Part shown: positions 12,817-54,029 of the stretch, in pieces
How the letters are laid out: each line of letters begins with the position of its first letter
How positions within the stretch are numbered: the stretch's first letter is position 1
Assembly (NCBI GenBank): GCA_028286915.1
Contig: JAQBQQ010000013.1
Span: forward strand, 1-59,641
Length of the DNA stretch: 59,641 nt
Direction: 5' to 3'
From: Candidatus Peribacteria bacterium
GTDB lineage: Bacteria > Patescibacteriota > Gracilibacteria > Peribacterales > Peribacteraceae
Program-made: the position numbers and the translations under genes
The notes under the pieces: generated by a model
The model's input: the letters and a program-made list of their open reading frames with translations, nothing else
Databases searched by the model: none
Told to the model about the DNA's origin: nothing

Positions 12817-15800
12817 TTAATGTCCGGTGCCATTGGGAGGCACGACAGTAACGTTAATACTTTCTGATCCAATGACAGTATTCTGAAGATCCGTTACCTG
12901 GAAATCCATGGGATAGATGTTATTCAGTGTCCGCCAGGTCCATGTGCTGAAATCGACCCATGCGTGCTTGAATGATTCCGTGACGGGTTCTGTGTCCAGG
13001 TTGAAAAACTGGCCGTTGCCCGTGCGCCAGCCGATGTTGTATGTGTTAATATCCAGCCCGTCGATGACTGCCCGGATCTCCTGCAGGCCGGAAATGGTAC
13101 TATTGGCTGTGGGGAATAAAAGATGAATGGGATAGGTGGAACCCGGGTTCGGCGGGCCGGGCGGAGTTCCTACCGTAAAGACGAACGCACTGTTCTTCCA
13201 GAAATAGAGCGTTGAGTAGTTGGCAGAGAACACGCCGATTTTTACAATATATTTGCCGTTGGCAGCCGGCAGTGTGACTGCCCAGTCATTGGAAAACAGC
13301 TGATTTTTGACCAGATTTGTAGTGACGACATGGCTGAGTAATTCCGTGCCGGTACTGCTGTATATTTTGGTGACAATGGAAACGTTGGGTACGGCATTCG
13401 TGGCGGCGACATTGGTGGTGACGGTTGTCGGGTCGCCCGGCTGGAAAATATTCTTCGGCATGCTGGCCGATACAACGAACGACGTGAAGGTAGGCGGTGG
13501 TGGAGGCGGAGGTGCAATATTATTATTCACCGTTACTGTCACCGGTGGCGATGTTGTCTCATTGCCGGCCGTGTCGCGGGCTTTGGCTGACAGTGTATGT
13601 GGTCCGTTGGCAATGAGCGTTGTGTCCCAGGCTATACCATACGGTGCCGCGGTGTCAGTGGGGCCAAAGGGAGCGTTATCCACGAGGAATTGCACGCTGG
13701 CAATGCCACTGGCATCCGTTGCGCTGGCCGTTATGACGGATGCGCCTGTGACAGTTGCCTTGTCGGCCGGATCGGTAATAGCGGTTACCGGCGGAGTGGT
13801 ATCCGCTGGAGGCGGTAATACGTCGTCCCTCTTCGCCCAGCTCAGCTTCGCCACGGCATTGCCGTACGCTTCGTAGTATTCAAACAGCACCAGGTGGCTC
13901 CCGGCCGTCATGGTCTTCGTCACGTTGTAGGTTGTGGCCGGCTGATCTGTGAACTTGTCGATAATCACCGTGCCATCCACCGACACGCGCACGCCATCAT
14001 CGGCCACGGCGGTAAAATCATAGTCACCTGCTTTGAACGTAAAGTTCCCCTGTGACTTCAAAGAAAAATTATCCGCCGGCACAACCGGATCAGGCGACCC
14101 GCCGCCCCAGTCAAAGCTGAGTGCCCCATCGGTCCGTGCCAGCTTGAGGCTGGAGAAATTCTTGCCACTGTAGTAGCAGCTGGTGAAGGCGTTGGTGCCG
14201 GGAGTGTTGCAGGCGGGTGGAACTACGGGTGGGAGCTGGCCTGTACTGAGTGTTGCCGTGTACGTCTGGTTTACAGACGGCGAGAAAAACGTATGGCTTG
14301 CCGTGCCGCCGTCGGACCAGGACGTAAATGTATAACTGGTTCCACTGATAGTCTGCGGGCTGGCTATGCTGAGCGTGCGCTGAATGCCGGCAACGCTTTG
14401 GGTCTGGTAGGGCGTGGTGAATGGCTGGCCATCCAGCAGAAGCTGCGCACCATTGGGATTACTGGCAAGGCCCAGTGTGGCGACAGTGGGGTAGACAGGA
14501 ACCTGGAGTTCGGTCGACAGTCCGGCTGAATCGGTCACTACCAGATCGAATACGAACCACGTGTTCGGGTCCGGTTCGCCTTCGCGCGGTATGACATAGT
14601 TGCCGGCAGTTACGCCCTGGATTTCATCGGGCGTGTGAATGTGCGTATTGTGGTGCGGAATGATTTTCCAGAAGTAGGCGCTGGCAGGTAACGGGTTGCC
14701 TGCCGTATCGGTGGCGGTACCTGCAAAATGGATACTGTCACCGGCAACATATTTTGCGTTCGCTGCCGGACTGGTAATGCTGATAACCGGCGGTTTGTAG
14801 CCGGCCCAGACAGTGACGTTTGCACTTTGCATCTCGTTATCATTATTGACGCTGAGTGTGGCCGTGTAGACACCTTTGGTGGTGTATGTATGGGCGGGTG
14901 ACGCTTCCGTACTTGTTGCGCCGTCGCCGAACGTCCAGGCATAGGTGAGCGCGTGGCCCAGAGAATCATTGCTGCCGGTACTCGTAAACCGGACTGTAAG
15001 CGGCAGGTCGCCGGATGTTTTATCGGAGCCGGCTTTCACGGTGAGTATACCGCTCCGCGTTTGGGTGTAGCAGGTTTTAAATAGATTGCCGGGGAAAATA
15101 GTGAGCGTGTACATGCATCCGTCTGCTCCAAACGCGATATTGGACAGGGCGCCGGCCTGGCCTTCAAATGACTGGAAATTACTGGCATTGCCATTGGCAT
15201 CAATCGTGACGGTTTTAATGGTTCCCTGCACGTAGTCGCCATAAAAATACTGGTGCTGGTATTGGGCCGGGAAATTCTGGCCGCGGTATGTGTCACCGCC
15301 CAGAACGGATGTCCCCTGGCCGTTATGCGCAATGACAAACACAGGCGGCGTAATGCCGCCGCAATTTGGCCGGCAGTCGCCTTCCACTGTGGGCCAGCCA
15401 TAGTTGGCACCTGCCTGTACCCGGATAATTTTTTCGTACAGGTTCTGCCCGACGTCGCCGACAATCGGCCGGCCCTGTTCATCAAAGTTAAAATGCCACG
15501 GGTTGCGGAAACCCATGGCATAAATAGCTTTCTGCGCACCGGGCGTGTCGTAGAAAGGGTTATCCGGCGGAATGGTGCCGTCTTTGTTGATGCGGATCAT
15601 TTTACCTTCCAATGCCGACAGGTCCTGGGACGTCAGTCCTTTGCCGTCGTTGCCAAGCGTGGCGTACAGTTTGCCATCCGGCCCGAAGCGCACGGTGCCG
15701 GCATTTAGTGCTCCGCCCCAGGTGGCGGGGTTTTCCAGCAGAATGAGTTCCGATGCAGGGCTGATCGTATTGCCTGACATGGTAAAACGTGACACGCGCT

Positions 15801-16155
15801 GGTGCAGCGCTGTGGATGTATAAAACAGATACACGTACGGGCTGGCCGGGAAAGCCGGGTCGAGTGTAATGCCGAGCAGGCCGCGGTCGCCGCCGTTCCC
15901 AACCGGGAGATTAAGCGCCGGCGTAGCGAGCAGCTGGTTATCTTTGAAGATCACTACTTTCCCCTGTTGCTGTGCAACGAAGATACGGTTATCGGGTGCC
16001 ATGGCAAAGTCCGTCGGCAGGCTGAGGCCGGCCGTAAGAAGTTGCTTTGAAAAGCCGCCGGGTGGTGCGGCATGCGCGGGCGGCGAGATTGAAAAAAGAG
16101 AGGCGCAGAGCAGCGCAATGCCCAAAAGCCTGAAATTGGCTGCAATTGTTGGCAT
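12817..16155 (-). CDS. Secreted glucose/sorbosone dehydrogenase-like protein with PKD and PA14 domains
   Basis: A 1112-residue exported protein. Order: signal peptide (1-29, ending SPPAHA); six-bladed beta-propeller of the soluble glucose/sorbosone dehydrogenase (PQQ-type) family (about 33-360) with GNGGDRGLLGITLDP, YATLGNDGKG and YAMGFRNPWHFNFD; a PKD domain (about 368-450, YAWTFGDGATST, HTYTTKGVYTATL); Ig-like segments (about 455-640); a PA14 domain (about 655-785, DYDFTAVADDGVRVSVDG); an Ig-like domain (about 790-880); then a Pro-rich linker and two beta-sandwich-like repeats to the end. Likely a surface or released protein that binds and perhaps oxidises sugars. There is no C-terminal membrane anchor or sorting motif. 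PQQ synthesis genes are not seen, so catalysis is unproven and a pure binding role is possible. TTATTC ends 9 bases before the ATG. Confidence 0.88.
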   Translation of the reverse strand: MPTIAANFRLLGIALLCASLFSISPPAHAAPPGGFSKQLLTAGLSLPTDFAMAPDNRIFVAQQQGKVVIFKDNQLLATPALNLPVGNGGDRGLLGITLDPAFPASPYVYLFYTSTALHQRVSRFTMSGNTISPASELILLENPATWGGALNAGTVRFGPDGKLYATLGNDGKGLTSQDLSALEGKMIRINKDGTIPPDNPFYDTPGAQKAIYAMGFRNPWHFNFDEQGRPIVGDVGQNLYEKIIRVQAGANYGWPTVEGDCRPNCGGITPPVFVIAHNGQGTSVLGGDTYRGQNFPAQYQHQYFYGDYVQGTIKTVTIDANGNASNFQSFEGQAGALSNIAFGADGCMYTLTIFPGNLFKTCYTQTRSGILTVKAGSDKTSGDLPLTVRFTSTGSNDSLGHALTYAWTFGDGATSTEASPAHTYTTKGVYTATLSVNNDNEMQSANVTVWAGYKPPVISITSPAANAKYVAGDSIHFAGTATDTAGNPLPASAYFWKIIPHHNTHIHTPDEIQGVTAGNYVIPREGEPDPNTWFVFDLVVTDSAGLSTELQVPVYPTVATLGLASNPNGAQLLLDGQPFTTPYQTQSVAGIQRTLSIASPQTISGTSYTFTSWSDGGTASHTFFSPSVNQTYTATLSTGQLPPVVPPACNTPGTNAFTSCYYSGKNFSSLKLARTDGALSFDWGGGSPDPVVPADNFSLKSQGNFTFKAGDYDFTAVADDGVRVSVDGTVIIDKFTDQPATTYNVTKTMTAGSHLVLFEYYEAYGNAVAKLSWAKRDDVLPPPADTTPPVTAITDPADKATVTGASVITASATDASGIASVQFLVDNAPFGPTDTAAPYGIAWDTTLIANGPHTLSAKARDTAGNETTSPPVTVTVNNNIAPPPPPPPTFTSFVVSASMPKNIFQPGDPTTVTTNVAATNAVPNVSIVTKIYSSTGTELLSHVVTTNLVKNQLFSNDWAVTLPAANGKYIVKIGVFSANYSTLYFWKNSAFVFTVGTPPGPPNPGSTYPIHLLFPTANSTISGLQEIRAVIDGLDINTYNIGWRTGNGQFFNLDTEPVTESFKHAWVDFSTWTWRTLNNIYPMDFQVTDLQNTVIGSESINVTVVPPNGTGH

Positions 16156-29406: not shown

Positions 29407-29775
29407 GTCGCTGAGGGAAAATGGAAGTAAAGGAGGTCACGGATCCGAACGCACCTCACTCTTTCTTGGTCCCAGAGAGCTACCCTGGGGAAGGCAATAA
29501 TGCCGAGTGAAGTGTGAACGATTGTCCACCCATTGTGACCGGAGTTCAAGTATTCCTGCTCATCAAAATTTTGTAAATATTGTGTAATACTACTTGGCCT
29601 GCAGAGGCCTGAATAGCGGCAGAATTGCTTTTTGCATCAAAACGAAGCCAAAAATTACCAATCTGTTTTTGTTGAATCTGCCTATGGTCCGGCATTTCAT
29701 AAAATTGGAAAAACTGTCAAGGACAAGTCATCATTTTGTGTGGAGTAGCGGGTTCAATAAAGCGCATATTTCTGG
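29407..29775. other. Intergenic region between ssb and the exported-protein operon
   Basis: No convincing gene in about 370 bases. On the minus strand, the part next to ssb forms possible stems (CCCAG/CTGGG around 29470-29500, and GAGGT...ACCTC around 29433-29457), which may be a structured ssb leader. A possible minus-strand promoter is near 29570-29590. The rest is A/T-rich and unassigned. Confidence 0.4.
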
Positions 29776-29781
29776 TATACT
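29776..29781 (+). promoter_or_regulatory. Extended -10 promoter of the five-gene exported-protein operon
   Basis: TGGTATACT (extended -10), with the hexamer ending 12 bases before the ATG at 29794. It is the only promoter-like site seen before the operon. Confidence 0.6.
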
Positions 29782-29793
29782 CTTGAGATTCAC

Positions 29794-32700
29794 ATGCTTC
29801 CTGTCCGCCGCCGGCTTTTGCCTTTCTCCCTGCTGATTTACGGTGGCACGATAGCTGTGCAGATTGCCTACGGCAGCCCGTACGTTTTGCCCGAACAGCC
29901 GCCGGCGAATTTTGCGGAGATACAGGCACTCGTCTCCCGTAAAGAAAGCGGCGGAACCGACGGACCGATTGCGACCGCATTGGCCGGTGCCATGTGCGGC
30001 GGAACGGCCGCAGCGGAATCTATTGGGACAGGCGGGCAGACGAAAATCCCGACCGTGCGCGGCGTGCCGGGACGGGCCGGTTTGCCGCTGGATAACGTGT
30101 TATCCGGCATGGCTACGCGTGCGGAGAAAGGCGGCACGCTCAACGACGGTTACCAGTTTCCGGAAGATGCCACCGGCTTCACGACAGCTTGTCAGTTAAA
30201 CGTAACGGATAAAACGGTAAAACGGTACGTGAGCTTTTTGGGAACCGAGGTGGATGTGGAGTATCCGCATGTTACGGACCCGATCTGTAAAAATTTTGAT
30301 GACAAGACGCACTCGCCCATGTCGCCGGAAACCTGTAAGGCGGCATCGGATTACCTGAATGACACACGCTTCACCTGGAGAGACTGCCGCAATGCTATTT
30401 TTAACCCCCTCACATTTACCTTCGTCTGTACGGATTGGCAGCAGAAGTATGTCTGCTCGGATGAATGGGTGACGGCACCGGTAATAAAGAAAAACAGCGA
30501 GGAATGTACGGGCAGCGCCTGCCGGTGTCCCGGCCCCGGTTGCAAGTATGCGGCCAATCGCCAGCCGTATGTATCGTACTTCCGCAAGTACGAAGCCAAA
30601 ACTTCCCGGCAGAAAGTCTCGGCTGTGCCCACGGATTTACTGGCGGTTTCAGCGAGCAGTGCGGGTGGCGGCGGTGCCTGCACGGCCGAGAAAGATGCGC
30701 TCGCGCAGGCACAGAATGAATTTGCCATCGCTGATGCGGCGTACCGGAAGGCAGTGGCGGATTATCAGCCGAAAATTGATGCCTATAAGAGCGGCGTTAT
30801 TCAGCTGACGGCTCTGTACGCGGCTATTGAAGACATCAAAAGTAAGCTGGCCAACCCCGTGCCGCCGGCGGGCATGTCGGTGGCGGATTATATGAAGCTG
30901 CTTCAGGCCAGCCTGGCGTCGTATGCCAAGCAGTTGGGCGAACTCATACCCAAAGTGCTCAAGTTGCAGGCCGAGGCAACCGGCCTGGAGGCGCTGGTAC
31001 AGGCCGCCGAAGACAAGATGCACAATGCGCGGCAGCGGTTGCTGGATGCGGAATCGGCTTTGGATGCGTGTCTGAACGGCAAGCCCATTGCTATGCCGGT
31101 GGCCTGCTATGGCAATTACGAGGAATTCGATACGCGCAAAAAAACAACGGTACAGAAAGACATGCGCTGCGTCATTCGTTTTCCATTTACCGCCGATGAG
31201 CTCAGAACAAGCCAGAGCGGCAAGGGAACCTATGGCGTGACGGCAGCCGATTTCCCGCAGGTAAAACGTAATACGTCGTACAATGACGGCAAGGATTTAT
31301 GGTACCCCAACGTGAGCGACAGTATGTCCCTGCTCAGCGACAGTTCTTTTGAGCAAAACTACGGCAACGATTTGTCGCAGGCGCTTTTAAGTCCGGATAA
31401 GTCCGATATTCGCGCCTACCCCCAGCGGTCCAGCAGCCTGTATGCCACCACGTCTACGGTGCGTGCGTTTGATGAAACAGTGAGCAAGAGTGCCGATGCC
31501 AGCCTGAACCGCAATGATGAACGGTCGCTTACCACGTGGTGGCAGCGCATGGAAACTGATGCCGACCGCCTGTTCTCGCCGCCGGCCGTGCGGCTGCGCC
31601 TGCCGGATACCGTGGCGTTGTCCGTGCAAGACCTGCCGAGTGCCAGCGGCAGTGTTATTCACACCGATCCGCGCACGCAATCTATTGATGTCCAGTTAAG
31701 GGCCGGTGATGATTTGCTGGGTGAAGTGGCGGGTTTTTTGCAGAAATCATTACTGCTCCAGGTGCGCGAGGAGCCGGTGCCGGTGGTGGTGCCGCTCGGT
31801 TCGCCATTGGATTTCCGCGCCGATGCCGAGCGCTGGAAAGGCTGGCGGGCGCAGCGGAAATTATATGGCCTGGCACCGGTGCCGGAAGTGGATGCGCTCA
31901 TTTTACAGCTGGAAGAGTATGCCGTGCAGATAGAGCGCGTCCGCCAACTGCGCTCCGAACTGGCGAGGTACATTGGCGGCGTCATTGATCATCAGCAGGA
32001 AGTGCTCATCAATATAAATACCTGGGTGCAGCAGAATTTGGACGTCTATAAGTCTTACCTCAAAAACCGTGAGGCACGATTGTCTCTGCGTGGCCGGTGG
32101 GTGGCGGTGCAGCAGGAGTACCTTAAGTTTCATGACGATATCAATATGCCGTGGTGCCGGAATGACCGGTTCACCACGCCTGTGTATTCCATGCTTGATT
32201 TCTGGTACAGGGGACAGCACACGTCTTTGTCCGCCGGTATCCCCCAGTGCGGAACGGCGGTGGGTGGCGGGCTGCCGCTTTTGTGCGTACCGCAAGCCGA
32301 AGAAGATATGGTATTTGATCTCTCGAACCTGCGCGTTATGACGGGTGCGCTGGCCGTACCGGTGCTCAAGCCCACGCAGTTGTCGCTGGCTATTCCGCTG
32401 CCGGGCCCGGTGGATGAAGAGATGACGGCCGATCAGAAGAAAAGTCTTTTATTACCGGATCTGCCATTGGTCCCAACCATCGACACGGCAATTATTGATG
32501 CGTTGCCGACGGTAAAAGTGGAGTCCATGCCGCCAACCATTGTGCCGCCGACACTGCTGAATACGCTGCAGGCAAACCTGGTGCTCAATCAGTCTCAGTT
32601 CATTCTGCAGAATATGAACAAGACGTACCAGAAATTCTGGGACAGCCTTGCGCCAACCGATACCACCAGAAAACTGGAGTGTAATGACTGGGCGGATGGC

Positions 32701-33099
32701 AGTTGTATTCATGTGGAAACGGATTTGATGGAACGTTTTACGCGCATTATGGCGCGGCCGGCTGTGCTACTTAAAGAAGATCTGCAGTCGCTCGGCGCGC
32801 CGCGGGCCCGCATTTCCGGCACAGGCGATGCGTCGGTTACCTGTAATCCGGCGGATCATGCATGTGTTACGCTCAAGCAGCAGCGAACCGTTCCCAAAGA
32901 CGGCTGGCAGATAGTGCCGCCCAGGGTGCTGCCCGACGAGCAGAATGTTATTGACGCACTGCGGACCGGGATGCGGCGGAAAACGCTGCAGGATAATCTG
33001 CAGATAACGAATGGCGTTCCTTATATTTCATCGCCGGAAGATATTCTGCCGATCTATACTGTCCCGGAGTCTCTGGATCTCCGCCCGCCCAAACTATGA
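29794..33099 (+). CDS. Large exported Cys-rich protein with coiled coil, operon gene 1
   Basis: An 1101-residue protein I cannot assign to a family. Signal peptide: residues 1-28 (LLPFSLLIYGGTIAVQIAYG). Residues about 65-270 are Cys-rich (more than ten Cys, with a dense part ECTGSACRCPGPGC). Residues about 295-425 are Ala/Leu/Lys-rich and helical, likely a coiled coil (ALAQAQNEFAIADAAYRKAV), bounded by Cys on both sides. The rest is mixed, with scattered Cys to the end. No membrane anchor after the signal. It is likely disulfide-rich outside the membrane. It overlaps the next gene by 4 bases (ATGA). The long protein, periodic helices and operon context suggest a structural or scaffold part of a surface assembly; that is inference. 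Confidence 0.7.
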   Translation: MLPVRRRLLPFSLLIYGGTIAVQIAYGSPYVLPEQPPANFAEIQALVSRKESGGTDGPIATALAGAMCGGTAAAESIGTGGQTKIPTVRGVPGRAGLPLDNVLSGMATRAEKGGTLNDGYQFPEDATGFTTACQLNVTDKTVKRYVSFLGTEVDVEYPHVTDPICKNFDDKTHSPMSPETCKAASDYLNDTRFTWRDCRNAIFNPLTFTFVCTDWQQKYVCSDEWVTAPVIKKNSEECTGSACRCPGPGCKYAANRQPYVSYFRKYEAKTSRQKVSAVPTDLLAVSASSAGGGGACTAEKDALAQAQNEFAIADAAYRKAVADYQPKIDAYKSGVIQLTALYAAIEDIKSKLANPVPPAGMSVADYMKLLQASLASYAKQLGELIPKVLKLQAEATGLEALVQAAEDKMHNARQRLLDAESALDACLNGKPIAMPVACYGNYEEFDTRKKTTVQKDMRCVIRFPFTADELRTSQSGKGTYGVTAADFPQVKRNTSYNDGKDLWYPNVSDSMSLLSDSSFEQNYGNDLSQALLSPDKSDIRAYPQRSSSLYATTSTVRAFDETVSKSADASLNRNDERSLTTWWQRMETDADRLFSPPAVRLRLPDTVALSVQDLPSASGSVIHTDPRTQSIDVQLRAGDDLLGEVAGFLQKSLLLQVREEPVPVVVPLGSPLDFRADAERWKGWRAQRKLYGLAPVPEVDALILQLEEYAVQIERVRQLRSELARYIGGVIDHQQEVLININTWVQQNLDVYKSYLKNREARLSLRGRWVAVQQEYLKFHDDINMPWCRNDRFTTPVYSMLDFWYRGQHTSLSAGIPQCGTAVGGGLPLLCVPQAEEDMVFDLSNLRVMTGALAVPVLKPTQLSLAIPLPGPVDEEMTADQKKSLLLPDLPLVPTIDTAIIDALPTVKVESMPPTIVPPTLLNTLQANLVLNQSQFILQNMNKTYQKFWDSLAPTDTTRKLECNDWADGSCIHVETDLMERFTRIMARPAVLLKEDLQSLGAPRARISGTGDASVTCNPADHACVTLKQQRTVPKDGWQIVPPRVLPDEQNVIDALRTGMRRKTLQDNLQITNGVPYISSPEDILPIYTVPESLDLRPPKL

Positions 33100-33962
33100 A
33101 GCGCTCTCTGCAATATCTATTCGGCAAAAATGTTCGCATGGTAGTGGCGTGCCTTCTTGTCTTTGCCGGCTTTCTGCCGACGCAGGGAAGTATGTCCGTT
33201 CTGGCCGCAAATTCCGCCTCTTCTTCATCCCTAAATGAAGGGCCGATAGACAGTTGCCAGAGACAGGTGGAGGATCAGGCGAGTGCGGTGCAGGCGCAGC
33301 ATCGGAGCATTCTGTTCGGCCAGAAGCCGGCCAGGGATCTGCCGATTAACAGTATTACATACGATGAAAGTTTTCTGCGCTGGATTAAGACCGGCACGGA
33401 TAAATGGACCGGCCCGGGTGGGCGCGCGGCAACGAATGCCGAGATGGATAAGCGCTCGCCGTTCGCCGGGCGCCGGGGCATATTTGAAACGCGCGGCGTG
33501 ACGACATCCGAACTTATTCCTTCACTTACGCAGGACGCCCGCGCCTTTGATTGCGCGCTGGCCGCCGTGTGCGTGAATGCCGGTTTGTCTGCCGCGCAGA
33601 TTCAGGAACTCACGCAGAAAGACGGCCGCATAAAAATTGAAACCCGCGGCTGCCTGCCGGTTATGACTCAGCCTTTATCGGCATGCAGTGCGCTAAACAC
33701 CACAGGTGACCGGGCAAGCATAGACATTGCCAATACCTACTGCCAGCCAATGGTAGACAGTATTGTGCAGCATGAAAATGACGTCTTGAAAATGACGGTG
33801 AGTTACGACGCGGCCTACCGATCGCTGTTGCAATTTGCCGGTAGTTTTGACGGATTTCTGGGCCAGTTCAAAGGCGATCTGCTAACGCCCATCGAGCAGA
33901 CGGCATCCCTCGTAAGCCAGTTATCGCGCATTCCCTGCTTCCTTGCCGAATGTAATGAGTAA
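33096..33962 (+). CDS. Exported Cys-containing protein, operon gene 2
   Basis: A 288-residue protein of unknown family with an N-terminal signal or anchor (VVACLLVFAGFLPTQGSMSVLA, about 15-38). It holds about eight Cys (for example FDCALAAVCVNAG and the C-terminal IPCFLAECNE). The core is mostly helical. The ATG lies in the ATGA overlap with gene 1, and its own end overlaps gene 3 by 8 bases, so translation is coupled. No Shine-Dalgarno is seen. It is probably a partner of the other four products. Confidence 0.65.
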   Translation: MKRSLQYLFGKNVRMVVACLLVFAGFLPTQGSMSVLAANSASSSSLNEGPIDSCQRQVEDQASAVQAQHRSILFGQKPARDLPINSITYDESFLRWIKTGTDKWTGPGGRAATNAEMDKRSPFAGRRGIFETRGVTTSELIPSLTQDARAFDCALAAVCVNAGLSAAQIQELTQKDGRIKIETRGCLPVMTQPLSACSALNTTGDRASIDIANTYCQPMVDSIVQHENDVLKMTVSYDAAYRSLLQFAGSFDGFLGQFKGDLLTPIEQTASLVSQLSRIPCFLAECNE

Positions 33963-34806
33963 CTCGCTCTCTCGCATCGGCTTTGTGGCAAAACATGCAC
34001 ATGCATGGGCCGTTGCCGGTGTCTGTCTGCTGATACTTGCAGTGCTGCTCATGGCGCGCGGGCACGGTGCCACGGCCGCACTGGTGACAACGGATGTGCA
34101 GCCGGTTTTATCCGCATGTTCGGGCAGCGATATTCTTTTCCCGCAGAGCGTGGATGCGTTTGATAAGGCGGCACTGGTAGATGAAAATGGTAAACTTCTG
34201 TATACCGGCAAGCTGGAGGAATGGCGTAAAAAATATGATGAGAATGTGAATAAAATTTTAAAAACGCACCTGGAGCAGACAGCCATTATGTGTACCGATT
34301 TAGTGGCCGAACCGCCCAGTACGGAGCTGCGCGGGCTGGCAGCGGAACTGCCGCCGTGGCAGAGTGCCAAGCGGCTGGAGACGCTGTCGGAGGACCAGAT
34401 GCAGTCGGTATTGCTGGAGCAGTTGCGCGTGTACCAGTGCCGCCTGCGCGAGCAGATTTATTTCCGCTGGTCCACGTCCGACGCCGAGGATCTGCTGAGA
34501 AAAAAAATGATCTCGCAGACCGACATAGGAACCGATGCCATTATGTTTGCGGCGCAACAGACATGGGTGGACCGTGAGCTGGAAGCGGCACCCAGGGCTT
34601 TGGAACGGACACTTAAATACGTGGAGGGCATGAATCGTTTGCGGCCACTGGATCAGTCGCTCGAATGTCTGTCGCGGACATCACTGGATATACGAAATAT
34701 TCTGGGTCTTGCCGCCGAGACAAGCGCCTGTCTGCCGCGTATTTGGGATGCGCGCGGTTCGTTGCGCGACTTGACTGCGACAGTTCTCCCCGTCAGTTCA
34801 AAATGA
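33955..34806 (+). CDS. Membrane-anchored exported protein, operon gene 3
   Basis: A 283-residue protein of unknown family. Residues about 15-36 form one hydrophobic segment (WAVAGVCLLILAVLLMARG) without a clear cleavage site, so it may stay anchored with the bulk outside. The remainder is helical and charged (LYTGKLEEWRKKYDENVNKI), with five to six Cys. The ATG at 33955 overlaps the end of gene 2 (ATGAGTAA); gene 4 starts in an ATGA overlap with its stop. Confidence 0.65.
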   Translation: MSNSLSRIGFVAKHAHAWAVAGVCLLILAVLLMARGHGATAALVTTDVQPVLSACSGSDILFPQSVDAFDKAALVDENGKLLYTGKLEEWRKKYDENVNKILKTHLEQTAIMCTDLVAEPPSTELRGLAAELPPWQSAKRLETLSEDQMQSVLLEQLRVYQCRLREQIYFRWSTSDAEDLLRKKMISQTDIGTDAIMFAAQQTWVDRELEAAPRALERTLKYVEGMNRLRPLDQSLECLSRTSLDIRNILGLAAETSACLPRIWDARGSLRDLTATVLPVSSK

Positions 34807-37373
34807 GAAAGATTATTGTTTCCTGCATGGGCTTGCTCCTGTTGGCACCAGCCATGGTGACGGCCGCCGCGCCATCTATCTACGACACCATGCGCTCCAT
34901 TGGAAATATGGAAATGATCCGGAACAATGCGGGTGAACCTGCCGCGGAGGTGGCGGTGAAACAATATGTGGCAGCGCTGTTTAATGAGCAGCTATTACAG
35001 CCCGATGATATAGATGCCGCCCTGCGCGATGACAGGGAATTTTGCAAAGAGAGAACGGCTGGCACTACTACGCGGCCGGCTTTGAATCTGCTGGATTGCA
35101 ACCGGTTATCGGAAGAAATTATCCGCATTGTGCAGCGCGAAGAGCGTGTCCGTACGCTGGGCCGCGATTTGCAGATTATCGCGTCCAGTAATGAGTTGCC
35201 GGTTACGGGCGTGGTAGCCGGCCGCACCAACCTGCCCGTACGCGCCCAGAGTATTATGCGCATCTGGCGTGCCGGTTCCGGCAGCAGTGCCGCCACGCAG
35301 ACTGGCGTCATTATCCGTTCGTTCGTCTTCCCCGTGGAGGCGCAGAAACCATTGGAAGATCTGCATGCTGCGTTACAAAAATTGCAGGGTTCACCGTCAT
35401 CCGCAGGTCCGGATGAATTCACAGCTGCTGTCTGGCGGTATGAATATGGCGTCGGGTTTGTGACAGGAAAATTCAGTCCGGAGTTTCCGCCGCCAAAGGA
35501 TGACACGGCTCCCGGTACGGAGCGGCAGTACCTGTATAAGCACTGGACCGCTGCCTCCGGTGCACCGGTAGAGGAGGCGCTTACGCAACTTTCTTTGTTG
35601 TTGCCAAAATCATTTGTCCCGCCGCTCGGCCGCACGGAAGCGGCGGTATTCCGTCTGGCGGATGATGCCACCGCTCCCGGTTTTCAGGCTAAAAATCAGT
35701 TTGACGAACTGGGTATCGCCGTGTGGGGCACCGTGGAAACAGTAGATGGCAAACAGATTATTGATGCCGGCCTGCAGTGGCTCATGCCTGTGGAGCCGGT
35801 GCTGCCGTCGCTGTGTAAAGATGCGGTTGCCGGTAGCGCCTGCGACCCCATTCTCGGCGGTGCCGTGCCGCCAGACAGTAAAGACGGCATGGGTTTGTGT
35901 CTTCAGCCGCTCAGCCGTAACGGTTACCTATGCCGCGATATGACGGCCAGCCAGAACCCGAGCGTGTGCCGGCAGCAGATCGGTTCTGCCAGTGACGCTA
36001 TTACCCTGGCTGCCTGCACCTCCGCGGAGCCAGCCATTGTAACCACCGGCGGCCCGGACGTTTGCCGCGATACCAACTGGATGCTGCCGCGCGCGCCGGA
36101 CCCGGTGAAGCAGTGTAATCTTGTGTTCCAATGCGCAGCTGCGGCACCCGTGGCCGCGCACCGTTTTCCGCTCAAAAAAATACTTACCGGCCCGGTGGGC
36201 AAGCAGGAAGGAACGATTGTTATTGCCACGCCGGCCGGTACGGAACTTCCAACCGAATACGCTCTTATGCAGTCGCTTACGCAGGCGCGCCAGATTTGCG
36301 ACCTTCCCGCAGGCACGGACCCGTACACACTGGGCGGCATTACCCAAATGAACAACAGTTGCTGTCGCCTGGAAATGGATGCCAACCGCGTTGCCTGTGA
36401 AGCCATGCAGGCGGATACGTTATTTGGAAACGAGCAGTCGTTGAACACGGCGTATAACGCCGTTACGTGTGCCGATATCCTTACCGATTCCACCTGCCGC
36501 AGCCGGGGCTTTGGCAAGTGTGCCGGTACGTTTACGTCCGGTAATACCGACGCGGTTGTCCAGAGCTGGCGCACGGCGCTGGTAAATGTTATCCGCACGC
36601 GCTGGACGGAACTTCATGCCGGGGACATAAAGGCAGATCCGGCCTACGGGTCTTGCAATGCTCTCCTGGGAAATACCGGCACCAGCGGTATTGCGCCGCG
36701 CATCAATGGCATAGTCCAGACCATTAAACAGATAGGCCGCGAAGTGTGTACGCCGTTGGCCCGTACGCAATTTGAAAATACAATCGGCAATAACCTGTGC
36801 TACCTGGGACAATGTCTGGAGCAGACGTATGAACAGCACAGAACCACGCCCGGCCGGCAGCCGCTTACCGTACAGGACGAAGCCTACCCGTGGGATGCCT
36901 GCATGCTGCCGTCGCGCACGGCCGGTGCGCTTACGACCGGCGGCACGGAACTTGGTACCAACCTGCCGCTGTACCGGCCGCAGCTTTTGGTGCAACAGCT
37001 GGATGAAGCGCTGTGCCAGATGAATGGCCTGCCGCCGCAGTCGTCACCGGTTCGTTGCGCCTTCGATATCACCAGACGTCTGCTCCTCCCGCTTACATCG
37101 TTGCGGACATCGCTGAGCATTCTGGATCAGACCAGTGAACAGCGCAGTGCCGCGCAGGGATTGCAGGGTATGAGTGAGGCAATCGGTTCCAGAGTCGGTA
37201 CGCAACTGTATGTGGATTACCTCGGCCGCAGCGCGCGTGCCTTGTCGGTCGTTACCAAAAATGCTGCCACGCTGCTGGAGACATTTACCAAAGTTACTTT
37301 CACGCGGGCTATGTGTCCGCAAAACGATGCCGCCGGCGATGCGTTGCACGCCACTCCTTTCTGTCTGCCGTAA
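34803..37373 (+). CDS. Large exported Cys-rich protein, operon gene 4
   Basis: An 856-residue protein of unknown family. Signal peptide MRKIIVSCMGLLLLAPAMVTAAA. An N-terminal helical region (about 25-150) is followed by a mixed region and, from about 370 onwards, a strongly Cys-rich part with closely spaced Cys (LCKDAVAGSACDP, LCLQPLSRNGYLCRD, VCRDTNW, NSCCRLEMD). No C-terminal anchor. The many Cys suggest extracellular disulfide-stabilised domains. ATG 34803 is set by the ATGA overlap with gene 3; upstream in-frame codons lie inside gene 3. Confidence 0.68.
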   Translation: MRKIIVSCMGLLLLAPAMVTAAAPSIYDTMRSIGNMEMIRNNAGEPAAEVAVKQYVAALFNEQLLQPDDIDAALRDDREFCKERTAGTTTRPALNLLDCNRLSEEIIRIVQREERVRTLGRDLQIIASSNELPVTGVVAGRTNLPVRAQSIMRIWRAGSGSSAATQTGVIIRSFVFPVEAQKPLEDLHAALQKLQGSPSSAGPDEFTAAVWRYEYGVGFVTGKFSPEFPPPKDDTAPGTERQYLYKHWTAASGAPVEEALTQLSLLLPKSFVPPLGRTEAAVFRLADDATAPGFQAKNQFDELGIAVWGTVETVDGKQIIDAGLQWLMPVEPVLPSLCKDAVAGSACDPILGGAVPPDSKDGMGLCLQPLSRNGYLCRDMTASQNPSVCRQQIGSASDAITLAACTSAEPAIVTTGGPDVCRDTNWMLPRAPDPVKQCNLVFQCAAAAPVAAHRFPLKKILTGPVGKQEGTIVIATPAGTELPTEYALMQSLTQARQICDLPAGTDPYTLGGITQMNNSCCRLEMDANRVACEAMQADTLFGNEQSLNTAYNAVTCADILTDSTCRSRGFGKCAGTFTSGNTDAVVQSWRTALVNVIRTRWTELHAGDIKADPAYGSCNALLGNTGTSGIAPRINGIVQTIKQIGREVCTPLARTQFENTIGNNLCYLGQCLEQTYEQHRTTPGRQPLTVQDEAYPWDACMLPSRTAGALTTGGTELGTNLPLYRPQLLVQQLDEALCQMNGLPPQSSPVRCAFDITRRLLLPLTSLRTSLSILDQTSEQRSAAQGLQGMSEAIGSRVGTQLYVDYLGRSARALSVVTKNAATLLETFTKVTFTRAMCPQNDAAGDALHATPFCLP

Positions 37374-37376
37374 GCT

Positions 37377-38816
37377 ATGTTCCGCCGTCTTTCCGCCTTC
37401 GGCCTGCTTCTCTTTCTGCCTGTACAGGTGGCGTTTGCCACGCAGTCTGATTCATACGCCACGCAGGTGTTGGACCGTGCCGATCAATCCATGGCATACA
37501 TCGACAGCCAGGAAAAAATAGTGAGCTTCTTCCAAAGTGCGCTGCCCAGCTGGACGCGTAGTACTTTTTCCGCGCTGTCCGACATTGTGGATACGGACCT
37601 GTTGGTAAACCAGCAGCAGCGCGACCTGCTTGAATTTACACCGTGCCTGCATACCGACGCCGCTCTTATAGAAGCAAAAATTGTGGAGGTGCAAAAAAAA
37701 CTGGTGGAGGCCAACGACGCCCGCGACGCCTGGCGTATTCTGCAGTACAAATCACTCATTGTTTTTTTGCGGGATCGCATTGCCGTTCTGCTGCGCGGCG
37801 CGGTTGACCCTGCATTCAAAGACCCGGACTGGACAGCGGTGAGTACATTTGAGCCGTTGCCCGAAGCAGACCTTGCCAATGTCTGCCCGTTTGACTCGGA
37901 TTATTTACCGCCCAGCCTGGGCGGATACGGCTGCGATATTGAAGCCATTGATGCCAAGCTGGCCGCCATGGACAGTTCATTGCCTGCTTTAAAAGATACG
38001 CTTACAAACGAGCGCCAGTCGCTTACCCGGGTACAGGCGGCGGCCAACCAGTATTACGCGCAGTCCCAGTCCATCAGGCAGATTCAAAATGCCATTGACG
38101 CCGTGGTGGAAGGAAAGCCGGTGCCGGCGACATCTGTTACACCGGTTATACGAACGCATAAACGCGTACTCGGCTGCGAAGTGCCCGGCTGCCTGCAAGA
38201 CGGTTCCGGTTGCCGCGCCATGACCGGTGCGCTGTTTACCACATTGCGTGGGCCGTTCTCGTTGGAACGTAATGAACTCACGTTACTAAGCAACTTCCGC
38301 AGGCTCCGCAAAAGCCAGGCGGAAGCGCGTCCGCCATCGGACTTGCTGGCCGTTCAGCCTGTAGACCCAAACGGTTATTCACTGGACAGCACATTCGGGT
38401 CCATCGGCAGAAACGTGTTCAAGGATTTCAGTGTGGACATTGCAGACCAGGAAACACTCATCTTTGCGCTTGGCGCCGACTCCTCGCAGCGCATTGGCGC
38501 CGTCCTCACGCCCGTGCGGGATTCCATCGAACGCCTTGCCCGCCTGGTGTACCCCAAGGCAAGCGACGCCGCTCCGGCTGATACAACTGGCAATACTGCC
38601 GGTGGCGCATCGTCGGACAGCAAGATCGTCGGTCTGCGCGCCTTCGTACGGGATTTCGCCTATTTCCTCCGGCGCTCCTGCCTGGAACGGCCGTGTAACG
38701 AACGCCTGGATCGCGTGCTCAAAATAGTCTTCCAGGACGCCTGTTTCCCTTACACCAAAGGGACGTACCTTACGGAAGATGAAAAGGCGGCATGTGTGAA
38801 AGCGGCGGGACTTTGA
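37377..38816 (+). CDS. Exported Cys-containing protein, operon gene 5
   Basis: A 479-residue protein of unknown family. Signal peptide MFRRLSAFGLLLFLPVQVAFA. It is mostly helical, with likely coiled-coil parts (IEAKIVEVQKKLVEANDARD and AIDAKLAAMDSSLPALKDTL) and about a dozen Cys, including the cluster LGCEVPGCLQDGSGC. Its ATG follows the gene 4 stop by 3 bases. The stop (TGA) runs directly into a low-complexity repeat, with no clear terminator. Confidence 0.66.
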   Translation: MFRRLSAFGLLLFLPVQVAFATQSDSYATQVLDRADQSMAYIDSQEKIVSFFQSALPSWTRSTFSALSDIVDTDLLVNQQQRDLLEFTPCLHTDAALIEAKIVEVQKKLVEANDARDAWRILQYKSLIVFLRDRIAVLLRGAVDPAFKDPDWTAVSTFEPLPEADLANVCPFDSDYLPPSLGGYGCDIEAIDAKLAAMDSSLPALKDTLTNERQSLTRVQAAANQYYAQSQSIRQIQNAIDAVVEGKPVPATSVTPVIRTHKRVLGCEVPGCLQDGSGCRAMTGALFTTLRGPFSLERNELTLLSNFRRLRKSQAEARPPSDLLAVQPVDPNGYSLDSTFGSIGRNVFKDFSVDIADQETLIFALGADSSQRIGAVLTPVRDSIERLARLVYPKASDAAPADTTGNTAGGASSDSKIVGLRAFVRDFAYFLRRSCLERPCNERLDRVLKIVFQDACFPYTKGTYLTEDEKAACVKAAGL

Positions 38817-38876
38817 GTCTTGAGTCTCGAGTTTTGAATACGTCAAAAATCAAGACTCAGGACTCAATATTCACAT
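38813..38876. repeat. Low-complexity CAAGACTC-type repeat, locus D
   Basis: TTGAGTCTTGAGTCTCGAGT and, in the other sense, ATCAAGACTCAGGACTCAA, directly after the operon. Same family as loci A-C. It could form a long imperfect hairpin (GAGTCTTGA/TCAAGACTC) and so serve as the operon's 3' end. Confidence 0.55.
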
Positions 38877-38898: not shown

Positions 38899-38927
38899 TT
38901 GATAAAAAATACTTTTTGTGCTATAAT
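38899..38927 (+). promoter_or_regulatory. Near-consensus promoter of the structured RNA
   Basis: -35 TTGATA (38899-38904), 17-base spacer, -10 TATAAT (38922-38927). One of the two best-formed promoters in the window (with 58687-58715). Confidence 0.8.
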
Positions 38928-39848: not shown

Positions 39849-39885
39849 GAGACCCCATCCGCCGCGCGGATGGGGTCTCTTTTTA
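39849..39885 (+). terminator. Strong intrinsic terminator
   Basis: A 13-bp stem GAGACCCCATCCG / CGGATGGGGTCTC followed by TTTTT. It ends the 39582 gene and lies at the 3' end of the convergent 39883 gene. Confidence 0.9.
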
Positions 39886-40944
39886 TTCTCCAAAAAATCT
39901 TTCACCACCGGTCACTGTTTTCATGCAGCGTGCATAGTGTTCCGGTTGTAACTCTTTGCAGAGTGCGCGTGTTTTACTAAGCGATGCAAAATTCACCAGA
40001 TAGTAGCTGCTCATGCCGTCTATGCAGTACGGTTCCATGTCCGGCGTATGGCTGCTGCAGACACGTTCCACTAGTGCCGGGTCTTTAATAGTAAATTTCA
40101 TAGTCGCGCTGCCGACACCTTTGGCGCAGGCATCGCGGTATTTTTCTTCGGCGCCGTCGCACCATTTAAGGGCGTCTTCAAAAGCATCCGTATGAATACG
40201 CAGGTAAAAACGCGGTGCGTAGAAATAGCACACCGGCTTAAGTAGCTCAGGCTGATCCGCACACGGGTAAAACGGATCTTCGGCTTTTAAATACTCAGAC
40301 GGATGCGCCTTAAAATCGGTATTGTAGTTTTCCATGTACACGCCTTCGGCACATTGGATTTTTTGGAACGGCTCCGCATATGTCTGGCAGAGTTTTATGG
40401 ATTGTACGACATTATTATCCAGAAAAAACATGAGCCCGTGGCCGACGCCGTGGAAACAGCTGGCATCACCCGGCTTGCAGATTATCCGCATGGTTTGTTC
40501 TATGTTTCCCACTTTGGCAAAGTGCGTTTCCACCACGCCATGCAGGTAGCCGGATCCACAGATATCATTTTCAAACAGCAGCGACCCCGTGAAGCTATTG
40601 GTTTTTTCGTAGGCTGCGTGGCCAATTTCGTGGGCTAGGGCATGGCACAGCCGCAGTACGCGGCCATCGGCATTCATGTCTGTGCGCAGAACAGCCAGAG
40701 CCTCTTTTGGGCTGGCGGTTTGCACAACCTGCGTGAGCTTTTTTATTTCCAGCTTGTACCAATCCGTACTGTTGGCGGATGACGCAAAAGAGGCAGAGTC
40801 GCTCCTAATTCCCGGAGTGTCTATGGCAGACGGAGTGATAACGGTTGTGCCCCTGTAAACGTGCAGCAAGAGAATAAGAGCCGCATCCGCTGCCAGTAAA
40901 AGGAGAAGCAGGAATGTACGCAGAAGAAAGGCGGAGGAGCGCAT
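39883..40944 (-). CDS. Membrane-anchored His/Cys-rich protein with HEIGH motif
   Basis: A 353-residue protein with an N-terminal hydrophobic anchor (LLRTFLLLLLLAADAALILLL). The outer part repeats His-containing motifs: LCHALAHEIGHAAYE (about 98-113), CGSGYLHGVVETHF (about 128-142), and CFHGVGHGLMFFL (about 162-175), followed by regularly spaced Cys (KLCQTYAEP, IQCAEGVYMEN, YPCADQPE, VCYFYAPRF). HEIGH matches the HExxH zinc-peptidase pattern, but the later His motifs suggest a repeated metal- or haem-binding design rather than a standard protease. No known family is assigned. TACTAT (40952-40957, minus) ends 7 bases before the ATG. Confidence 0.7.
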   Translation of the reverse strand: MRSSAFLLRTFLLLLLLAADAALILLLHVYRGTTVITPSAIDTPGIRSDSASFASSANSTDWYKLEIKKLTQVVQTASPKEALAVLRTDMNADGRVLRLCHALAHEIGHAAYEKTNSFTGSLLFENDICGSGYLHGVVETHFAKVGNIEQTMRIICKPGDASCFHGVGHGLMFFLDNNVVQSIKLCQTYAEPFQKIQCAEGVYMENYNTDFKAHPSEYLKAEDPFYPCADQPELLKPVCYFYAPRFYLRIHTDAFEDALKWCDGAEEKYRDACAKGVGSATMKFTIKDPALVERVCSSHTPDMEPYCIDGMSSYYLVNFASLSKTRALCKELQPEHYARCMKTVTGGERFFGE

Positions 40945-51851: not shown

Positions 51852-53573
51852 TTATTTCTTTCCTTCCTTTTCCTTGGTTTTATCAATGACTTTCTTGTAG
51901 TACGACTCCACTTTGGTTGTGAACGTATCCAAGTTTGTTACGATCATTTTTTCAGGCTGTGCAGGATCCGGATTAATGCCCATCGCGCTTTGTCCGTCTG
52001 CATCATTCAGTACTTTTTCTTTTTTAAATTCATTCAGCAATTTTGAAATGTTTTCAGGAAAGATGTGAATATAGAGTGTTGGTTCCATACTGTTGGGAGT
52101 TATTTTTACCTCTCCCTTCAGAATACTTTCGATCATAGTGAGAAAGTCGCTTATTTCTTTCGGGAGCGAGCTTCTATCCATGCTGTGGAGTATGGAAACT
52201 TGATTCCTTAATTGAGATTGAAGATTCCCCGCAGCATCTTCCTGTTTTCTTATTATATTCTTTAGGTCATCATTATCTTTCTTTATCTGATCAACCTGTT
52301 TTTGAAGATCCGTGACCAGAGTATCCAATTTTTTAACCGTTTCTTCAGCAGCCTGAAATTCCGTATTGGCTTTGGTCAGGTCGGCTTGCAAAGCGGAATT
52401 CTCCGGGTCTGTTTTTAATTTTCTCTCCGCTTCGTCGCGTGCTGTTTTCTTGTTCGTCATTTCTTGCGATACCTTATCCTTGCTTGCTAACGTGTCACGC
52501 AAAGCTTTGCCGGGACCTTCTACTTTTCCCTCGATTGTATCTGTTTGTATTTGTCGCAATTCTTCATATGTACCGGGTGTCGACTTCATCTTTGAGCCGT
52601 AGGCTTTGCCATCTTTCAAAAAATTCTGAAATTTTTTCAGTTGTATGTCATGTGTTTCGTTGGCGTCTTTTTTAGCATCTATCGGTTTGCCGTCGGCTCC
52701 TACAGTTGCTCCCGGTGTTTTTTCCGGCGAATACGGTTGGTCCCATCCGCCTTTAAATAAATTTCCCACAGCTGTCATGGCTTTCATGCCCGCCGCCATG
52801 ACTTTGCCGAAATTCACTTTTCCATCAGGGCCTTTTTTCATGGCTTCTTTCATCTCCTTCATGGCATCTTCTATATCACGCTGATATTTCTCACCCATGG
52901 TCGTGGGTTGTGTTTTTGTTTCTTCCGGTGCCGGATTGGCTAATTTTTTAGCCGCATCCAATTCGCTGTTTGCTGTAGTATATTCTTGTTTTTTGTTACG
53001 TAGCTCTAGCTCTGCATCTTGCAGAGCTTGCGGGTTTTCTTCAAGAGTTCTCTGAGCGGCTTTATAATCTGTCAGTTGCTTATTAAATCTATCCAATACG
53101 GCTTTCGCTTTCGGTAGCGATTCGCGAATTCCTGCTTTTGCAAGTTCTGTGGTTTCCGGCTTATCTGCCGCCGTTTTCATGGCTGCTATATCTTTTTTTT
53201 GTTTACTAATCGATTGTTCAATAGACCAGTCTGTCTCATCATACTTTTGAAGAGGATGCACAATTCGTAAGCCGCTTTCCCCTTCTGGCGGCGGTGTTGT
53301 TTTCGCGTTGCTTGCCTGTTTGAGTAGGTTAACCTTGGCCGTAACTGCCTGCACTGTGGCATCTAGCTCTTTCACCTTCTTTGTCGCTGAATTGATACGT
53401 TCCTGACGAGCTTCCTCAGCTTTCTTATCTGGTCCTTTTGGTGCTTCTTTTTTATCGAGGCCTTTCTCAGCTGGCCTTGGTTCTGCAGGTGTTTCAGCGG
53501 GTCCTTTAAATATCAGACGCTTTTCCTTAAAGAGCTTTTCTGATGGCCGGAATGCGTACGTGAATATTGCCAT
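51852..53573 (-). CDS. Long hydrophilic coiled-coil protein, 573 aa
   Basis: A Lys/Glu/Ala/Thr-rich soluble protein of unknown family. It starts MAIFTYAFRPSEKLFKEKRL, goes through a Pro/Glu/Lys-rich stretch, then several coiled-coil segments (KVKELDATVQAVTAKVNLLK; LRNKKQEYTTANSELDAAKK; VKKLDTLVTDLQKQVDQIKK), and ends with a small mixed domain (about 480-573) that may be globular. No signal peptide. Base composition is more A/T-rich than the neighbours. Gene 53576 lies just upstream on the same strand (2 bases apart), so the two probably form an operon. Confidence 0.7.
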   Translation of the reverse strand: MAIFTYAFRPSEKLFKEKRLIFKGPAETPAEPRPAEKGLDKKEAPKGPDKKAEEARQERINSATKKVKELDATVQAVTAKVNLLKQASNAKTTPPPEGESGLRIVHPLQKYDETDWSIEQSISKQKKDIAAMKTAADKPETTELAKAGIRESLPKAKAVLDRFNKQLTDYKAAQRTLEENPQALQDAELELRNKKQEYTTANSELDAAKKLANPAPEETKTQPTTMGEKYQRDIEDAMKEMKEAMKKGPDGKVNFGKVMAAGMKAMTAVGNLFKGGWDQPYSPEKTPGATVGADGKPIDAKKDANETHDIQLKKFQNFLKDGKAYGSKMKSTPGTYEELRQIQTDTIEGKVEGPGKALRDTLASKDKVSQEMTNKKTARDEAERKLKTDPENSALQADLTKANTEFQAAEETVKKLDTLVTDLQKQVDQIKKDNDDLKNIIRKQEDAAGNLQSQLRNQVSILHSMDRSSLPKEISDFLTMIESILKGEVKITPNSMEPTLYIHIFPENISKLLNEFKKEKVLNDADGQSAMGINPDPAQPEKMIVTNLDTFTTKVESYYKKVIDKTKEKEGKK

Positions 53574-53575
53574 AG

Positions 53576-53923
53576 TTACATGGATGAAATAACGGCTTCC
53601 AAATTAGTCAGCTCGGAATCCTCCGTTCTGCGATCCTCTTTTTCCACAGATCCAATGGCATCGCGCTGGTATACTTTCACTTTGGTTTCCAGTGCCGCCA
53701 TGTATGCCAGATACTGTGCGTCATATTCTGCAAAGGCTTTGTCGTAGCGTTCGCTGCGCGCGGCCGCCTGCTCCGGTGTTTCATCTTTGTATTTTTCCTT
53801 GAGGGTTTCAATCTGATCCGGCATGAGTTCCGGCTCAATTTTCCCCATCAGCAGGGCATACACTTCATCGCCCGTAGGAATGGCAGGGGCAGCCGGCTCT
53901 TGTTCTATGGGTGTTACGGACAT
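53576..53923 (-). CDS. Hypothetical acidic helical protein, 115 aa
   Basis: A soluble, acidic, mainly helical protein (GDEVYALLMGKIEPELMPDQ, AYDAQYLAY-type helices) of unknown family. The start at 53923 (MSVTPIEQEPAAP) is preferred over an earlier in-frame ATG at 53977. A perfect TATAAT lies 25 bases before it on the minus strand. It is the first gene of a pair with the coiled-coil protein at 51852. Confidence 0.6.
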   Translation of the reverse strand: MSVTPIEQEPAAPAIPTGDEVYALLMGKIEPELMPDQIETLKEKYKDETPEQAAARSERYDKAFAEYDAQYLAYMAALETKVKVYQRDAIGSVEKEDRRTEDSELTNLEAVISSM

Positions 53924-54029
53924 GGTGTGTATGTGAATAGTTCCACTTATTATAGCAAAAATACGATATTTCTGCAATTATTCCATTCTCTCCGTCATTT
54001 CTCTACACTGGCGGGGCACTATATCACCT

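Follow-up and report, generated by a model that had tools for sequence, protein, structure and literature searches.

The question raised by the DNA considered here is what five exported proteins, encoded side by side and without recognisable relatives, might build together. The DNA is a stretch of 59,641 nucleotides from a Candidatus Peribacteria bacterium (class Gracilibacteria, phylum Patescibacteriota; contig JAQBQQ010000013.1 of assembly GCA_028286915.1), referred to below as the window, and the five genes form an operon at positions 29794–38816, which occupies 9,023 of the 59,641 bases (15%, as had been reckoned in a preliminary description made from the sequence alone). That description saw in the operon a disulfide-folded surface machine of unknown family, possibly an appendage or host-attachment complex. 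The answer for which we argue, with moderate confidence and from the comparison of sequences, is a surface complex particular to the class, stabilised by disulfides and built on the product of gene 1 as its scaffold; it would be linked ancestrally to the type IV pilus and probably serve cell–cell attachment.

All five genes lie on the forward strand: gene 1 at 29794–33099 (1101 amino acids), gene 2 at 33096–33962 (288), gene 3 at 33955–34806 (283), gene 4 at 34803–37373 (856) and gene 5 at 37377–38816 (479). Re-reading bore out both these lengths and the tight coupling described earlier; the junctions 1–2, 2–3 and 3–4 overlap by 4, 8 and 4 bases (ATGA at the 4-base overlaps), and 3 bases separate genes 4 and 5. 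Open reading frames were called mechanically and the gene starts are approximate; the genes themselves are real, to judge by the conservation of the operon at roughly 20–48% amino-acid identity across the family to which the window belongs. Each protein begins with a hydrophobic stretch that can be read as a signal peptide or anchor, as had been claimed, and none has a further segment resembling a transmembrane helix. The N-terminal segment of gene 1 is weak and falls below the threshold of the scan; that of gene 3 is read as a membrane anchor, and the other four products are predicted to be exported. Gene 4 was found in 30 of the 36 family genomes searched by BLAST and in 62 of 73 searched by profile, one of the latter (G005) counting only through a zincin-like domain in a different protein; the same profile matched none of 270 other genomes of the class. 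The genes stand in the same order in 27 neighbourhoods, as a rule between murB/ssb and dnaE, and gene 1 ranges from 896 to 1570 amino acids in the family. Here and below the phylum was sampled, not exhausted, and family labels (f2, f4 and so on) are anonymous.

The five families have remained without known relatives, as first supposed. No Pfam or NCBIfam match to the five proteins reaches the cut-off, and hints of MscS_porin, SipD/IpaD and SlyX among the matches were rejected as coiled-coil noise. Profile searches of the PDB with the five families, the core of gene 1 and the zincin-like domain discussed below returned noise only. Comparison of the five profiles with one another gave no internal homology worth claiming; a weak N-terminal match between genes 4 and 5 (59.9%) sits at the signal-peptide end and was rejected as homology. 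No relative of gene 5 was found by tblastn in 72,556 plasmids, no gene 1 pattern in viral contigs, no VirB/Tra homology (type IV secretion or conjugation) in the operon by Pfam or NCBIfam, and no prepilin signal or PilY1 homology by Pfam in the five proteins or in nine genes 2–5 of other families. AlphaFold models of genes 2 and 3, each built from two sequences (the window and L021), reached pLDDT values of 46 and 37, too poor for a fold search. The preliminary description had proposed that conserved synteny without known homologues would speak for a new system, and that homology to secretion, pilus or conjugation parts, or absence from close relatives, would speak against one; the gene order is conserved, no such homology appeared and the operon is present in relatives. 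A search of the open-access literature, which takes in neither subscription journals nor preprints, turned up no account of the operon. The novelty lies in there being no homologous system described; adhesion or display at the surface, as a general task, could turn out to be commonplace.

The first step towards an answer came from gene 1. A search of 380 genomes of the phylum with its profile gave weak additional matches in two other families, to open reading frames of 5,011 and 4,710 codons. The first of these, the 5,011-residue protein of G276 and the best-read homologue, carries SLH, Big_1/invasin (Ig-like), FG-GAP, DUF11 and TSP3 domains. When the giants and gene 1 of the window's family were compared as separate profiles (hhalign), they aligned over 349 columns with a probability of 99.5% and an E-value of 1e-22. 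The shared segment, at 31528–32787 in the window (residues about 579–998), is a core domain that recurs across the class. With two giant sequences added, its profile matched 33 of 361 phylum genomes, all of them within the class except for a marginal case (G617, E 4e-4), and the matching open reading frames outside the window's family were of 2,842–5,270 residues; in the sample searched, the core thus occurs essentially nowhere in the phylum outside class Gracilibacteria. The final profile of about 400 positions found it in 281 of 343 class genomes (201 of the 236 that are of high quality), lineages with in-frame TGA among them; gene 1 of the window matches at E 1.1e-44, the window itself being among the rows of the profile. 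The exported giants run to about 2,800–5,800 residues, and the 1101 residues of the window's protein fall short of the several thousand typical of them. On these alignments, the window's gene 1 is a giant exported protein in reduced form. It also holds something of its own, a coiled-coil insertion of about 160 residues (30595–31077) found in no other sequence of the alignment of 27 relatives. As a separate observation, the 4,694-residue giant of G040 adjoins, in the place of genes 2–5, an 851-residue multi-spanning membrane protein without a Pfam match (L098:7368-9923).

The partners of gene 1 are likewise widespread. In G276 four small exported genes lie downstream of the giant; the same set follows it in 13 of 14 further genomes, and more examples occur in other sampled families. 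The order of genes 1 to 5 was found in 14 families besides that of the window (f2, f4, f9, f15, f16, f24, f25, f27–f32 and f34). For the last gene in f2 and f15, and for gene 2 in f15, position is the sole ground of the assignment, a profile match being absent; in f8 the set is incomplete. Profile–profile comparison of the window's family with the others gave matches on the diagonal only (94.5% for gene 2, 97.1% for gene 3, 65.6% for gene 4 and 89.8% for gene 5; below 2% off the diagonal), and the C-terminus of gene 2 can be recognised by eye, reading RVPCFTKQC in G276 and RIPCFLAEC in the window. With its five genes in order on one strand and all exported, the window operon follows the class-wide pattern. 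This spread, like the descent of gene 1 and the protease-like domain of gene 4, had escaped the first reading of the sequence.

The products had been called cysteine-rich, and cysteine is indeed raised, at 2.55% pooled over the five proteins (2.0–3.4% individually) against 1.29% in the other proteins of the window, but the enrichment is modest; the average for Peribacteria is 1.67% (PMC4736985). The invariance of the cysteines is a stronger fact than their abundance. Across 22–27 relatives, 9 are invariant in gene 1, 8 in gene 2 (in the mature part, which ends in a PCF..C motif), 5 in gene 3, 11 in gene 4 and 8 in gene 5, and the alignments place cysteines among the best-conserved residues of all five families. 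The genome encodes four DsbA-like oxidoreductases; VKOR, considered as a possible oxidant, is absent. There is thus good support for the disulfide-folded surface machine of the preliminary description, in the gene order kept in at least 15 families, the surface domains of the giant, the invariant cysteines and the DsbA-like proteins; 'appendage' and 'host attachment' go further, their sole link being an adjacency to pilus genes that is not obligatory.

Gene 4 consists of conserved N- and C-terminal modules (the latter at 36720–37352) around a variable middle. There, at 36060–36614, lies a degenerate zincin-like domain with weak resemblance to Peptidase M76/ATP23 (Pfam PF09768). In most relatives the domain carries HELVHAQQxC...CCxxExxAYxxxC, and hence the HExxH zinc site of M76 followed by its CCxxExxAYxxxC; at 36270–36293 of the window the relatives' HELVHAQQ reads QSLTQARQ, so that QSLTQ stands in place of the zinc site, and the domain is degenerate also in L030 and L034. 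Pfam Peptidase_M76 is matched weakly by 4 of 24 members of the gene 4 family, and a family-wide search gave eight weak matches in gene 4 reading frames (best E 2e-5) and none in 14 control genomes; unlike M76 proper, the domain always scores below the Pfam cut-off and is inserted in a large exported protein. Its position is not fixed. It is missing from gene 4 of a whole sub-lineage and sits in gene 1 of G026, G067, G079 and G080; in G005, which lacks the five-gene operon, it is joined to DUF4215 repeats in a surface-type protein of 1076 residues whose C-terminus is sorting-like (L079:9229-12459). It was not detected in the scanned genes 2–5 of other families. In G075, gene 4 (2,623 residues; L078:11505-19376) has had its middle exchanged for a long run of DUF4215-type cysteine repeats. 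In these exchanges, and in the coiled-coil insertion particular to the window, genes 1 and 4 behave as conserved frames that carry exchangeable cargo.

From the homology, gene order, export signals, invariant cysteines, linkage to pilus genes and exchange or fusion of domains between partners, we infer a physical complex with disulfides, a surface position for the products of genes 2–5 and a role in attachment. The complex would be a stable extracytoplasmic assembly specific to class Gracilibacteria, whose members are very small and probably depend on hosts, its five components meeting outside the membrane and braced by disulfides. Gene 1 would be the scaffold, in most of the class a giant with surface-display domains around the conserved core; the window's family appears to keep only that core and a cysteine-rich, variable N-terminal part. 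Genes 2, 3 and 5 would supply dedicated partners, disulfide-bonded and probably largely helical, with gene 3 tying the assembly to the membrane, and gene 4 a partner with conserved ends and an exchangeable middle, so that genes 1 and 4 might display variable modules outward. That these belong to one assembly is suggested by the occurrence of the zincin-like domain in gene 4 or gene 1 and by the fusion of genes 4 and 5 into a single protein in G238. The complex would ancestrally have been made together with a type IV pilus, and would present binding modules, in many relatives proteolytic ones too, at the cell surface. Two things make attachment to other cells its most probable use: the wider group includes an epibiotic predator, Candidatus Vampirococcus lugosii (Absconditabacteria), for which giant surface proteins and type IV pili have been proposed to act in host recognition and attachment (PMC8080830), and the genomes of Peribacteria make a heavy investment in surface proteins (PMC4736985).

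The likeness to these described proteins has its bounds. Like the giants considered here, those of Candidatus Vampirococcus lugosii are exported or membrane proteins of great length that carry DUF11 and integrin (FG-GAP-type) domains; the comparison is by description, the paper mentions neither a conserved core domain nor an operon or partner genes for the ten giants, and gene 1 of the window is only 1101 residues long (PMC8080830). The large cysteine-rich extracellular proteins of Candidatus Peribacter riflensis are of the same lineage, exported, enriched in cysteine and proposed to act in attachment, whereas they average 7.2% cysteine and 1,655 residues and the window's five fall within 2.0–3.4% and belong to a fixed class-wide operon (PMC4736985); pooled, the five do not approach the figure of about 7% that marks the very cysteine-rich Peribacteria proteins.

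Several observations weigh against the proposed complex. Pfam finds no known surface domain, SLH included, in gene 1 of the window. The cross-family match of gene 4 is the weakest of the set and rests partly on position. In the sampled TGA-recoded families (f14 and f19) the giant keeps its core, with in-frame TGA, but in the four genomes read genes 2–5 do not follow it; nor were they found next to the giant in f6, f11 and f23 or in two genomes of f15. The giant can thus do without these four genes, or has its partners encoded elsewhere.

How closely the system is tied to the pilus can be judged from its neighbours. In 16 of 20 operon genomes of other families whose upstream region was read (ten families), the giant lies directly 3' of a type IV pilus set on the same strand, comprising PilM/N, PilO, a PilB/T ATPase, PilC and prepilins, although in G241 only a prepilin was within reach; G043, G340, G036 and G049 have no such set beside the operon. 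The names PilC, ATPase and prepilin are by Pfam in G276, PilM/N and PilO by position, and in the other genomes the names follow from resemblance to G276. The operon of the window's family does not adjoin pilus genes, which the window's genome carries on another contig. One could suppose the five proteins to belong to the pilus as accessories, a tip adhesin (gene 1, PilY1-like) with its assembly or anchoring partners, which in the window's family would have been separated from the pilus genes; the co-directional adjacency and the presence of pilus genes elsewhere in the window's genome speak for this. However, gene 4 is kept in 15 of the 20 listed family genomes without PilC, as against 46 of 52 with it (Fisher p = 0.17), and the gene 1 core in 10 of 14 PilC-negative genomes of other families (a comparison of two lists); PilC-negative genomes may include some with a diverged PilC or missing contigs. 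The link is not obligatory for the five-gene system, and the notion that the latter is strictly a pilus part is set back by this persistence. Nor do genes 1–5 resemble pilus parts in sequence: neither they nor the scanned genes 2–5 of other families show a prepilin signal or homology to PilY1. We consider an accessory role of this kind unlikely. In the window's genome PilC forms the C-terminal part of a 1148-residue reading frame (L143:1543-4989, contig C45), possibly a fusion, whose neighbours are a PilB/T-like ATPase and prepilin-like proteins.

Alternatively, the operon might build or anchor a structural coat, S-layer-like or a fibrous envelope, with gene 1 as coat protein or anchor and the others as linkers to the membrane and peptidoglycan, and with no specific role in attachment. 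The G276 giant, homologous to gene 1, shares its SLH domains with S-layer proteins of the SLH type (Pfam PF00395), the system is nearly universal in the class, PilC-negative genomes included, and in the window's family it is inherited vertically beside cell-wall genes. Against this, neither gene 1 of the window nor the G040 giant has an SLH domain, the exchangeable modules (zincin, DUF4215 repeats) point to display and not to a lattice, and the mur-gene neighbourhood is not common to other families; a coat seems to us improbable, a little more so than the accessory pilus. A secreted protease system, in which the metalloprotease-like domain of gene 4 would be the active part and the other proteins carriers, inhibitors or assembly factors, has in its favour that most close relatives carry the HExxH...E domain, in gene 4 or in gene 1, and that weak M76 matches recur, but is very improbable, since the five genes persist where the domain is degenerate (the window, L030 and L034) or missing from gene 4 (a whole sub-lineage), and since the domain, undetected in the scanned genes 2–5 of other families, looks like optional cargo rather than the purpose.

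The surface complex scaffolded by gene 1 can also be put in a bolder form, which we offer tentatively and regard as doubtful, if well short of far-fetched: a previously undescribed, class-defining contact organelle, made of a giant scaffold and four exported subunits, ancestrally built with the pilus and used for epibiotic or predatory attachment, in which the window's family would have reduced the giant to its core and substituted display and protease modules of its own. For the hold of the many uncultured patescibacterial lineages on their hosts, only pili and unspecified giant proteins have so far been named. What can now be added is a set of orthologous genes, recognisable by a core domain that about four fifths of the sampled class genomes carry. 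The set lends itself to searches of proteomes, to localisation, and to removal or blocking in those few members that have been grown in co-culture, and the reduced family of the window offers a small number of conserved parts to express and solve.

The surroundings of the operon are ordinary, with ftsW, murG, gltX, murB and ssb on one side and dnaE on the other. Of its expression signals, the extended -10 promoter claimed earlier can be read in the sequence as TGgTATACT at 29773–29781 (forward strand), 12 bases 5' of the ATG of gene 1, but consensus promoter scans of the operon region did not rise above chance. A terminator-like stem-loop at 38806–38829 (forward strand) overlaps the stop of gene 5; the number of such stem-loops in the operon region is at the level of chance. 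The best promoter-like site of the region lies just 3' of the operon, at 38899–38927 on the forward strand (11 of 12 consensus positions, with TG before the -10), and is followed by about 950 bases with no obvious gene and no Rfam match. Three proteins encoded on the reverse strand elsewhere in the window may be recorded. That at 39883–40944 is N-anchored, with 353 residues, 14 cysteines and an AHEIGH motif; it has no Pfam match and was not found in the 27 related neighbourhoods. At 12817–16155 a multidomain surface-type protein of 1112 residues combines GSDH, PKD, PA14, Big_7 and Wzt_C domains. The third, at 51852–53573, is a coiled-coil protein of 573 residues without cysteine, encoded in a low-GC stretch with strong AT skew (-0.36 at 52001–54000).

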